A stretch of 34,406 nt of DNA from assembly GCF_030068445.1 (NCBI RefSeq), contig NZ_JAQPOK010000073.1:1-34406 (forward strand). The letters run 5' to 3'. Within the stretch, counting starts at the first letter, position 1; each line of letters begins with the position of its first letter. The position numbers and the translations under genes were made by a program. The notes beneath the pieces were generated by a model. The model had not been told where the DNA came from. It did no database searches and saw only the letters and a program-made list of their open reading frames with translations. Below are positions 18,747 to 23,193 of this stretch, piece after piece. Source of the DNA: Roseofilum halophilum BLCC-M91 (GTDB lineage Bacteria > Cyanobacteriota > Cyanobacteriia > Cyanobacteriales > Desertifilaceae).

Positions 18747-19169
18747 ATGGTCAATTCATCTCCCTTCTCTAAACTACGTCGTCCCTTCATCGGTCAAGGC
18801 GTTTCCTTCCCCCTACAGGTGACTCGTCAAGGTAGTTTAGCCTTGAGTGCCGAAGATCTCAATATTCGGGAGTCCATGGTCATTATTCTGATGACTGACT
18901 TGGGGGAGAGGGTTTATCGCCCTAACTTTGGCTGTCGGTTATCGGAATTAGCCTTTGCTCCCATGAACCGAGAGACCTTAACCTTGATGCGAATTTGGGT
19001 GCAAGAAGCTCTAGAACAGTGGGAACCGCGAATTATTGTGCGGCAAGTGTTAACCCTTCCTCGTCAAGAAGAAGGGCGAGTTGACCTGATCATTCAATAT
19101 GAAATTCGGGCCAATCACGATCAGCGTAGTATGGTGTTCCCGTTTTATCTCAAGTCCGAAGAAGGGTGA
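18747..19169 (+). CDS. GPW/gp25 family protein (phage baseplate-like), isolated
   Basis: A 140-residue protein matching the GPW/gp25 (IraD-like) family. The diagnostic part is ILMTDLGERVYRPNFGCRLSELAFAPMN, followed by an amphipathic helix with WVQEALEQWEPRI and two beta strands (VDLIIQYEIRA). In phage T4, type VI secretion and contractile injection systems, gp25-like proteins lock the tail sheath to the baseplate. Cyanobacteria can carry such thylakoid-anchored injection systems. Here no sheath, tube, spike or ATPase gene is within the window, so it is an orphan. Its stop is two bases from that of the convergent chorismate lyase. Whether the rest of the machine is encoded elsewhere cannot be seen. 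Confidence 0.85.
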   Translation: MVNSSPFSKLRRPFIGQGVSFPLQVTRQGSLALSAEDLNIRESMVIILMTDLGERVYRPNFGCRLSELAFAPMNRETLTLMRIWVQEALEQWEPRIIVRQVLTLPRQEEGRVDLIIQYEIRANHDQRSMVFPFYLKSEEG

Positions 19170-19819: not shown

Positions 19820-19831
19820 GATAGCGCTATC
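19820..19831. promoter_or_regulatory. Perfect 12-base palindrome between chorismate lyase and ntcB
   Basis: GATAGCGCTATC is a perfect palindrome 37 bases before the start of the chorismate lyase gene. It could be an operator half-site pair or simply part of the AGCGC-containing repeat background. Confidence 0.3.
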
Positions 19832-19861
19832 GGTTGGGTAATGGGGGTTCCCTTTTTATTT

Positions 19862-19903
19862 GTAGTCTTAAATACTAAATCCGGGTTTGAGGTTCGCTAA
19901 GGT
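19862..19903 (+). promoter_or_regulatory. NtcA-activated promoter of ntcB
   Basis: GTA (19862-19864), eight bases, TAC (19873-19875) is an exact GTA-N8-TAC NtcA site. After 22 bases comes TAAGGT (19898-19903), matching the TAN3T -10 box. NtcA-activated promoters have this arrangement with 20-24 bases between site and -10, and no -35 box. It lies 40 bases before the ATG of ntcB, a gene that is known to be NtcA-controlled in other cyanobacteria. Confidence 0.8.
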
Positions 19904-19942
19904 TTGGAAATCACTTAAGACGAGGAATAGGCTAGGCAGCCT

Positions 19943-20890
19943 ATGCGTTTAGAGCAATTACAAGCATTTTTATCGGTTGCTAAAACTGGCAATTTTCAAC
20001 AGGCAGCTCATGAATGCGGGGTCACTCAATCTACCATTAGTCGGCAAATTCAGGGATTAGAGGGCGATTTGGGTATTCCCTTATTTCATCGTTCTTCGAT
20101 CGCCAAATTGACGGTTGGAGGGGAAGTGCTGCTTCCCCATGCTCGGCGCATTTGCCAAGAATGGCAAACTGCTCAAGAGGAAGTTTCGGAGCTGTTGGCA
20201 GGAAAACAGCAGGAACTGTGTGTAGCGGCTATTCCTTCTCTATGTTCCTATGGTTTACCTTTAGTGTTACAGCGATTTTGTTGGTCTCATCCAGAGGTAC
20301 AGTTACGAGTAACGGCTTTGGGGAGCGATCGCGCCTTGAAAGTGCTGAAAGATGGTTTAGTAGACTTAGCACTCATTATGCAAAATCGCTTTTTAACGGC
20401 TAGTGCTGAATTAGTGGTCGATCCCCTCTTTGAAGAAACCATCGCCGTATTAATGGCAGCCGATCATCCTTTACATCAAGAACACCTGTTATCTTGGGAG
20501 GCAATTTCCCACTATCCGCAGGTGATATTTAAGGATGGATATGGGATGCAACGACTGGTTCATGAGCAATTTAGCAAACATAATCTTCAATATCGAGCGG
20601 TTTTAGAACTTAATACCTTAGACGCTTTTCGAGGAGTCATTCGCCAAGGAGAATTTATCGCTGTATTACCCGAATCAGCAGTACGATTAGCCTCCCAAGA
20701 CCCTAGCGTGATTTCTCGTCCTCTACAACCGAGCATTCATGATGGGGGAAAACCGCTAACTCGTCAAGTGGTATTAGTGACGACTAAAGATCGGCTGCAA
20801 ATTCCACCTATTGAAAAGTTTCGCGCCTTAGCCCTAGAATATATTCCTCCCCAATTTGCTCCACAAGCGGCGATCGCCAGTGGTAGATAA
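19943..20890 (+). CDS. ntcB: LysR-type activator NtcB of nitrate assimilation
   Basis: A 315-residue LysR-type regulator. The helix-turn-helix is at about residues 18-37 (FQQAAHECGVTQSTISRQIQ), followed by the linker helix and the two-lobed effector domain. The assignment to NtcB, the nitrite-responsive activator of nitrate-assimilation genes, rests on three points: the sequence resembles NtcB (LGSDRALKVLKDGLVDLALIM; FKDGYGMQRLV; LNTLDAFRGVIRQGE), a cnaT homologue lies 34 bases downstream as in Anabaena, and the upstream region has a perfect NtcA site. An inverted repeat GTCTTAA/TTAAGAC (19865-19871, 19915-19921) brackets the promoter and might be an autoregulatory site. No nir or nrt gene is in the window. 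Confidence 0.85.
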   Translation: MRLEQLQAFLSVAKTGNFQQAAHECGVTQSTISRQIQGLEGDLGIPLFHRSSIAKLTVGGEVLLPHARRICQEWQTAQEEVSELLAGKQQELCVAAIPSLCSYGLPLVLQRFCWSHPEVQLRVTALGSDRALKVLKDGLVDLALIMQNRFLTASAELVVDPLFEETIAVLMAADHPLHQEHLLSWEAISHYPQVIFKDGYGMQRLVHEQFSKHNLQYRAVLELNTLDAFRGVIRQGEFIAVLPESAVRLASQDPSVISRPLQPSIHDGGKPLTRQVVLVTTKDRLQIPPIEKFRALALEYIPPQFAPQAAIASGR

Positions 20891-20924: not shown

Positions 20925-22001
20925 ATGAGTGATTCCTTCCGAGAATTGTTAAAAAAAGTAGGCAGCGGCCCCCATACCGGAAAACTCCTCACTCGTACAG
21001 AATCGGCCCAAGCAGCGCGACAGATGCTGCTGCAAGAAGCGACACCTGCCCAAATTGGGGCATTTATGATTGCTCACCGCATGAGACGACCGACACCTGA
21101 AGAGTTAGCCGGAATTTTAGACACTTATGATGAGTTAGGGCCAAAATTGCAACCCCGTCAAGAAGGGGAAAAAGTGGTGATTCTGGGAATTCCCTATGAT
21201 GGGCGATCGCGCTTGGTTCCAGTCAATATAATTACAGCACTAATCCTCAACACCGTGGGTATCCCGGTTATTCTCCATGGAGGGAATCGGATGCCAACTA
21301 AATATGGTATTCCTCTGATTGACCTTTGGAAAGGAGTAGGAGTCAATTGGGACTCCCTTTCCCTCGATCGAACTCAGGAAATCTTTCATCAAACCGGTTT
21401 AGGCTTTGTTTATCTCCCTCAGCATTTTCCCCAAGCTCATAGTTTGATTCCTTTCCGAGAGCAAATCGGTAAACGCCCCCCCTTTGCAACCACTGAACTC
21501 ATGTGGTGTCCCTATTCTGGGCCCGTTCATCTAATGACTGGGTATGTGCATCCTCCCACAGAAACCCTATTTAAACGCGCTTTAGCCCTGCGTAATATCG
21601 ATCAACTAACAACAATCAAAGGATTAGAAGGTAGTAGCGATCTCCCCTTGTCTCGCACCGCTATTATGGGACTGAGTAGGGAGCAAAATGCTGAGGTTTC
21701 GGACACTCAAGAGCCGGAAATGGTTCTTGAACGCTTCTCGATTAACTGTCGAGACTATGGACTAACCCCATCGGATGTGGGATTAGAATCAGAAGAGATG
21801 GCGATCGCCTCTATTAAAGCCATATTAGACCATCAACCGACCCCTCTTTTGAACTCTGCAATCTGGAACGGCGGATTTTATCTTTGGCGCTGTGGGTATT
21901 GTGATAGCGTGGAGACGGGTTTATCCATGGCTCAAGATCTCCTCTATGGGGATAAAATAGCCAAAACCCTGCACAATCTGCGTCGGATAATTAATCATTA
22001 A
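20925..22001 (+). CDS. cnaT: CnaT, anthranilate phosphoribosyltransferase-like protein
   Basis: A 358-residue protein of the glycosyltransferase family 3 / anthranilate phosphoribosyltransferase superfamily. The N-terminal helical domain reads LLTRTESAQAARQMLLQEATPAQIGAFMIA when its short pieces are joined. The catalytic half contains GIPYDGRSRLVPVN and ILHGGNRMPTKYG, where true TrpD has the phosphate-binding glycine loop. It therefore looks like the cyanobacterial CnaT, which in Anabaena is needed for expression of the nitrate assimilation operon and lies next to ntcB. The reaction of CnaT is unknown, and it is unlikely to serve in tryptophan synthesis. It is probably cotranscribed with ntcB and the GTPase gene (gaps of 34 and 16 bases). 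Confidence 0.85.
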   Translation: MSDSFRELLKKVGSGPHTGKLLTRTESAQAARQMLLQEATPAQIGAFMIAHRMRRPTPEELAGILDTYDELGPKLQPRQEGEKVVILGIPYDGRSRLVPVNIITALILNTVGIPVILHGGNRMPTKYGIPLIDLWKGVGVNWDSLSLDRTQEIFHQTGLGFVYLPQHFPQAHSLIPFREQIGKRPPFATTELMWCPYSGPVHLMTGYVHPPTETLFKRALALRNIDQLTTIKGLEGSSDLPLSRTAIMGLSREQNAEVSDTQEPEMVLERFSINCRDYGLTPSDVGLESEEMAIASIKAILDHQPTPLLNSAIWNGGFYLWRCGYCDSVETGLSMAQDLLYGDKIAKTLHNLRRIINH

Positions 22002-22017: not shown

Positions 22018-23193
22018 ATGCACAAGTGGTTTAGGGTGACTCAGTGGTTTAAAGTCAGTGAGGAGCAAATTGCCGAAATTCTGGATCGGGTGCGATCGGA
22101 ACTACCAACGACAGAAGCGCTACTCATTGGCAAACCGCAAACGGGGAAAAGTTCAATTGTGCGGGGACTCACCGGAGTTTCTGCGGAAATTGTCGGTCAA
22201 GGGTTCCGTCCCCATACCCAACATACGGAGCGCTATGCTTATCCCTCGGAGGATTTACCCCTGTTGATTTTTACGGATACAGTGGGGTTGGGGGATGTCG
22301 AGCAGGATACGGATCGAATTATTGAGGAGTTGGCGCAGGAGTTGGAAGGGAAAACTGTTGGCGCTAGGGTATTGATTTTAACGGTTAAAATTAATGATTT
22401 TGCCACCGATACCCTGCGTCAAGTGGTGCAAAAGCTGCGTCAAAAGTATCCCCAGGTTCCCTGTTTGTTGGCCATTACTTGTTTGCATGAGCTGTATCCT
22501 GCGGATGTAGAAAACCACCCCGTTTATCCTCCAGAGTTCGAGTCTTTACAACGGGCAGCATCTGCCATTGAGGAGGGATTGAAGGGCGATCGCGCCCTGG
22601 AACCGGATCGGGTGATTTTAATTGATTTTACCCTAGAGGAAGATGGGTATACACCAGTATTTTATGGTCTCGATCAATTGCGAGATACCCTGGGAGATTT
22701 GCTACCAGAAGCAGAGTCTCGTGCCATTTATCAGCTTTTGGATCAGGGAGTGGGCAAGCAGTTAGGTAGCCTCTATCGGGATGTGGGACGAAGGTATATT
22801 ACGGCATTTACAATTATGGCAGCAACGGTAGCGGCTGCGCCCTTGCCCTTTGCAACCATGCCGGTGTTAACGGCTCTGCAAGTGTCGATGGTGGGAGTGT
22901 TAGGTAAGCTTTATGGCCAAACCTTGAGCGTGTCTCAAGCGGGAGGACTGGTGAGTGCGATCGCCGGTGGATTCTTAGCCCAAGCCATTGGTCGGGAGTT
23001 GGTGAAGTTTATTCCCGGTTTCGGCAGCGCGATCGCCGCATCTTGGGCCGCCGCTTATACCTTTGCCCTAGGGGAAACGGCTTGTGTGTATTTTGGCGAT
23101 TTAATGGGCGGAAAAAAACCCGATCCCAATAAAATTCAATCCGTAATGCGCGAAGCTTTTCAAGGGGCAAAAGAACGGTTTAAAAATCAATGA
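22018..23193 (+). CDS. Era-like GTPase with C-terminal DUF697 domain
   Basis: A 391-residue protein with an N-terminal G domain and a C-terminal DUF697-type membrane-associated domain. The P-loop is GKPQTGKSS (residues 38-46), and the G3 box is DTVGLG (Asp87, Gly90). The usual G4 box N/TKxD is not seen; at the expected place the sequence is AITCLHEL, so guanine specificity may be weak. The C-terminal half contains three hydrophobic glycine- and alanine-rich segments (AATVAAAPLPFATMPVL; GLVSAIAGGFLAQAIG; GSAIAASWAAAYTFALG) and is typical of DUF697, suggesting membrane attachment. The role is unknown; its gene follows cnaT at 16 bases and may be in the ntcB operon. Confidence 0.85.
   Translation: MHKWFRVTQWFKVSEEQIAEILDRVRSELPTTEALLIGKPQTGKSSIVRGLTGVSAEIVGQGFRPHTQHTERYAYPSEDLPLLIFTDTVGLGDVEQDTDRIIEELAQELEGKTVGARVLILTVKINDFATDTLRQVVQKLRQKYPQVPCLLAITCLHELYPADVENHPVYPPEFESLQRAASAIEEGLKGDRALEPDRVILIDFTLEEDGYTPVFYGLDQLRDTLGDLLPEAESRAIYQLLDQGVGKQLGSLYRDVGRRYITAFTIMAATVAAAPLPFATMPVLTALQVSMVGVLGKLYGQTLSVSQAGGLVSAIAGGFLAQAIGRELVKFIPGFGSAIAASWAAAYTFALGETACVYFGDLMGGKKPDPNKIQSVMREAFQGAKERFKNQ

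Follow-up and report, generated by a model that had tools for sequence, protein, structure and literature searches.

What drives transcription of ntcB, the gene for the LysR-family regulator of nitrate assimilation genes, in Roseofilum halophilum BLCC-M91? The question was addressed in a 34,406-nucleotide stretch of its genome (hereafter, the window), in which ntcB occupies positions 19943-20890 on the + strand. An exact GTA-N8-TAC, the NtcA-type site GTAGTCTTAAATAC, was read at 19862-19875 (+ strand), beginning 81 bases before the ntcB ATG at 19943, and is followed after exactly 22 bases by a -10 box of the TAN3T form (TAAGGT, 19898-19903, + strand); the exact site and the box at this spacing are the class II features visible in the sequence. 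The original prediction had described this array and placed ntcB about 40 bases away; re-reading returned the same letters and coordinates, and 39 bases were measured between the hexamer and the ATG. It had also held ntcB to be the only gene served. On the opposite strand, the hexamer at the mirror-image -10 location (19834-19839) reads ACCCAA rather than TAN3T and therefore gives no pointer to the chorismate lyase gene that diverges from ntcB.

The gene was assigned as ntcB from its domains and its orthologues. The product carries HTH_1 and LysR_substrate domains, both above the Pfam cut-offs, which places it in the LysR family, and the NCBIfam matches shown for it were all below their cut-offs. 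Among 59 genomes (the relatives set, own genome included), 57 encode an NtcB relative of at least 53% identity, one clear orthologue each, and among the matches listed the other hits have 25-32% identity, apart from G008, in which the gene is split and its second piece was matched as well. Orthology was judged within these 59 genomes, and the match to the characterised NtcB of Anabaena (all0602) is presumed. The two closest proteins among the best 80 of 488 relatives, from Roseofilum acuticapitatum BLCC-M154 and UBA2566, share 91% identity. The window's genome has nirA alongside NtcB, and two genomes (G031 and G035) have neither an NtcB orthologue nor a close nirA. G024 (L050) keeps the NtcB orthologue, but a close nirA is missing and its ntcB lacks a class II array. 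In G008 (L058), ntcB matched as two separate pieces approximately 2.6 kb apart.

The conservation of the array was evaluated before the ntcB orthologues. Fifty-six upstream regions were used from the relatives set, leaving out G031 and G035 (without an orthologue) and G018 (ends at a contig end); a named set, mostly of Nostocales, added a further 80 loci, which are the best 80 of 488 relatives. The combined 136 loci gave 130 upstreams that were distinct over their last 100 bases. The site, the 22 bases, and TAAGGT were found in all six genomes of the window's genus, at the same place. With a spacing of 21-23 bases, the exact array was present in 41 of the 56 relatives (0.3 in shuffles) and in 109 of the 130 distinct upstreams (0.8 in shuffles), and a spacing of exactly 22 bases was found in 102 of the 130 (0.3 in shuffles); these loci are mutually related, and the shuffles hold base composition but not kinship. 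Among the 21 upstreams in which the exact array was missing, one (L094) has just 62 upstream bases and was scored as a miss. The comparison with related genomes proposed in the original prediction thus showed the array to be kept.

The regulator and a second candidate target are encoded in the same genome. NtcA was identified with 386.9 bits (cut-off of 244.95), and nirA was identified by the Pfam family NIR_SIR. The nirA promoter (L066) reads GTAATTTGAAATAC-N22-TAACAT, so that class II geometry with a 22-base spacing is common to both promoters. The two differ in that the site begins 119 bases before the nirA ATG and 81 bases before that of ntcB, and in that nirA is without a clear copy of the leader element found at many ntcB genes (best matrix score of 11.4; shuffle 95% point of 10.1 and maximum of 15.3). 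After nirA and a short gene come what we take, from their translations, to be genes for a nitrate transporter, narB, and a nitrilase-like protein.

The closest published counterpart is the promoter of Anabaena PCC 7120 ntcB (all0602). PMC3898017 describes it as a canonical class II promoter for which the start is known and NtcA gives a ChIP peak. It reads GTAACAAAATCTAC-N22-TAACTT, followed by six bases and an A as the start (PMC3898017). Applying this geometry arithmetically, the start here is predicted at approximately 19910 (+ strand), an A six bases past the -10 box. Geometry, gene identity, and conservation agree in pointing to a class II NtcA promoter, as had been proposed, and for the orthologous Anabaena promoter a start and a ChIP peak are on record (PMC3898017). 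We therefore read 19862-19903 as the class II NtcA-activated promoter of ntcB, with a probability of roughly 0.93; NtcA binding, the start, and the nitrogen response are expected here by analogy with Anabaena. When nitrogen is short and 2-oxoglutarate is high, NtcA would bind GTAGTCTTAAATAC, centred at approximately -41.5, and contact RNA polymerase, and transcription would start near 19910 with TAAGGT as the -10 box. The output would be NtcB and probably also CnaT, both serving expression of the nir operon.

The alternative that survives best accepts the NtcA site as real and places the main control of ntcB in a second layer, a palindrome in the leader (ATAGGCTAGGCAGCCTAT here and TGTAATTCAGGCTACA elsewhere), to which NtcB or a second NtcA dimer would bind to repress or which would act in the mRNA. 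We regard this as possible but clearly the less probable reading. In the window, ATAGGCTAGGCAGCCTAT lies at 19927-19944 (no strand assigned), within the predicted leader and reaching into the ATG, and is a possible counterpart of the element seen in other orders and families. Many ntcB orthologues (L138, L208, L215, and others) have, in the stretch from the predicted start to the ATG, a palindrome with the consensus TGTAATTCAGGCTACA, mostly at -21. In 62 of the 130 upstreams (0.6 in shuffles), an exact GTA-N8-TAC begins 15-30 bases ahead of the ATG, and at least seven of the eight outer bases of TGTAATTCAGGCTACA were found in 72 of the 130 (2.6 expected in shuffles), both counts favouring a second layer. 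The element is commoner in the named, largely Nostocales set (55/74) than in the relatives (17/56). It accompanies 66 of the 109 exact class II arrays and is also kept in six of the 21 upstreams without one, the latter again favouring a second layer. Its inner eight bases are fairly constant (47-59 of 63), somewhat more so than those of the first site (49-98 of 109).

A search of 30 Nostocaceae genomes for TGTAATKCAGGCTACA, allowing at most one mismatch, found it in 25 (once in 21 and twice in four), with 29 hits in total versus five for a reversed control pattern. Nineteen of the 20 hits that were opened precede ntcB, the exception being L211, and this specificity is likewise on the side of a second layer. 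Against it, the canonical form was found in none of the six Roseofilum upstreams. A genus-built pattern found ATAGGCTAGGCAGCCTAT at ntcB in five of the six genus genomes, once in each, and gave a single control hit (G004); kinship alone could explain this sharing. Across 66 loci, the distance of the element to the ATG is more uniform (standard deviation of 1.3) than its distance to the -10 box (2.3), a pattern that lends no support to a promoter operator; on these values, the element could belong to the DNA or to the mRNA.

Two further readings of the leader element were tried and set aside. The first was an NtcB operator common to ntcB and nirA; a weight matrix built from 37 distinct instances was run on 49 nirA upstreams (30 + 19 loci), with script-set gene starts, leaving out L197-L206 as partial or distant hits and including two truncated loci (L175 and L195) whose start is possibly misplaced. 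Best scores in shuffles had a median of 3.4, a 95% point of 10.1, and a maximum of 15.3. Nine of the 49 exceeded 10.1 (L148, L155, L156, L159, L160, L170, L171, L173, and L176); L176 alone (16.6) exceeded the shuffle maximum, which the printed scores of L155 and L156 equalled. In five of these nine loci (L159, L160, L171, L173, and L176), the match coincides with a GTA-N8-TAC having its own -10 box. By these two counts, nirA promoters do not in general share the leader element, which weighs against the second layer, and an operator shared with nirA was rejected. As a separate observation that may deserve a look, the Hormoscilla-type loci L155 and L156 carry TTGTAAAAGAGGCTACAA, which resembles the leader element; it lies downstream of the nirA NtcA array, at 69 bases from the nirA start as set by script.

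The second reading, a conserved RNA hairpin over the Roseofilum start codon, was not supported by RNA folding of four leaders, whose z values ranged from -1.40 to +1.30. A 7-pair stem forms in the leaders of the window, L005, and L007 (z of -1.40, -0.92, and +0.43, respectively) and not in that of L008 (z of +1.30), where the folded stretch stopped just before the ATG, making the test unequal. The stem of the Roseofilum palindrome is thus not notably stable, a further point against the second layer.

The leading ideas for the leader element are that NtcB represses its own gene or that NtcA has a second site here, and the palindrome may be an autoregulatory operator. In its most specific form, a second operator particular to ntcB (TGTAATTCAGGCTACA at approximately -21) would have been rebuilt as ATAGGCTAGGCAGCCTAT over the Roseofilum start codon, and its binding by NtcB, or by NtcA at high occupancy, would shut ntcB off; we offer this tentatively, with the odds somewhat against it. 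If true, a circuit switched on by NtcA and off by its own product would keep the activator of nitrate assimilation within a narrow range. Through the leader palindrome, NtcB autoregulation would be open to a direct test, and the palindrome is the one point that merits an experiment.

The weakest alternative, in which GTA-N8-TAC and TAN3T are a functionless match from base composition, draws on the six copies of GTA-N8-TAC in the window (3.09 expected; at least six in 13 of 100 shuffles) and on at least one full array in 91 of 300 simulated windows (first-order Markov, same length), but it is very improbable in view of an array at the same place in 6/6 genus genomes and in 109 of 130 orthologue upstreams versus 0.8 in shuffles. 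When both strands were checked, only the copy at 19862-19875 had a TAN3T at 21-23 bases. As simulated windows average 0.38 full arrays, chance could account for the motif by itself in a stretch as long as this one; its geometry, taken alone, is weak evidence, and the case for the class II promoter is carried by location and conservation.

In the original prediction, control by nitrogen status probably extends to the genes behind ntcB. A cnaT-like gene at 20925-22001 (+ strand; NCBIfam PRK07394, 497.1 bits, cut-off of 287) and a gene for a GTPase with a DUF697 domain at 22018-23193 (+ strand; Pfam) follow on the same strand after gaps of 34 and 16 bases, respectively. PRK07394 is presumably a TrpD2-like family. 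A terminator-like site was not found at either the ntcB/cnaT or the cnaT/GTPase junction. One promoter-like match (10/12) lies at 20811-20840, inside the end of ntcB, and such matches were overall as frequent as in shuffles (5 versus 5.5). In the named set (the best 80 of 488 relatives), cnaT occurs within 1.5 kb after ntcB in 64 of the 80 loci, and this kept gene order together with the 34-base gap makes co-transcription of cnaT with ntcB plausible. The GTPase gene may be co-transcribed too, judging from the close spacing in the window's genome. Its case is weaker than that of cnaT, because it was found in the fetched flank of only two of the same 80 loci. Both belong to the genus of the window, and in L068, one of the two, approximately 500 bases lie between the two matches. 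Nothing supports a general tie of the GTPase to nitrogen.

On the other side of the promoter, none of the flanks of these 80 loci (again the best 80 of 488) contained the divergent chorismate lyase gene. Between that gene and the NtcA site, positions 19820-19831 form a perfect 12-base palindrome, GATAGCGCTATC, which is present in two of the six Roseofilum ntcB loci fetched (L001 and L004). Positions 18747-19169, amid housekeeping genes, hold a gene whose product has a gp25-like baseplate wedge domain (PF04965, E of 7.1e-22), a domain that occurs in contractile injection systems.

For the Anabaena ntcB promoter, the primary work is reportedly Frias 2000 (Mol Microbiol), which lies outside the literature covered here, so the leader element is not claimed as unpublished. 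Titles and opening lines of abstracts from literature searches, together with the available parts of PMC3898017, PMC4755962, PMC9430850, PMC7699953, and PMC4973221, make no mention of an additional site for NtcA or NtcB at ntcB. Expression of ntcB is described as being under NtcA control (PMC7699953). In Synechococcus elongatus, ntcB was reported to be unchanged after 24 h of nitrogen starvation (PMC4973221), which counts against the generality of such control.

In Anabaena (Nostoc) sp. PCC 7120, all0602 is ntcB (PMC3898017) and all0601 is cnaT, the latter according to a reference title in PMC9430850; the order ntcB then cnaT is shared with Roseofilum. The canonical leader palindrome of relatives of PCC 7120 (L138 and others) is absent here, and the two promoters differ in the internal bases of the site and in the -10 box (GTAACAAAATCTAC and TAACTT in PCC 7120, GTAGTCTTAAATAC and TAAGGT here). 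The ntcB promoter of Anabaena subtropica (L138) matches the published all0602 promoter at 45 of 49 bases. Since PMC3898017 had reported the PCC 7120 promoter as canonical, with a spacing of 22 bases as here, the present finding is known NtcA-ntcB biology, now in another genus, Roseofilum; the observation in the original prediction was right, as was its interpretation in the main. The Anabaena-type ntcB promoter is kept widely across its order, and a Roseofilum-type genome appears to wire ntcB and nirA alike. What Roseofilum shares with all0602 is the whole layout: GTA-N8-TAC, 22 bases, TAN3T, six bases, and an A as the start, which is predicted here.
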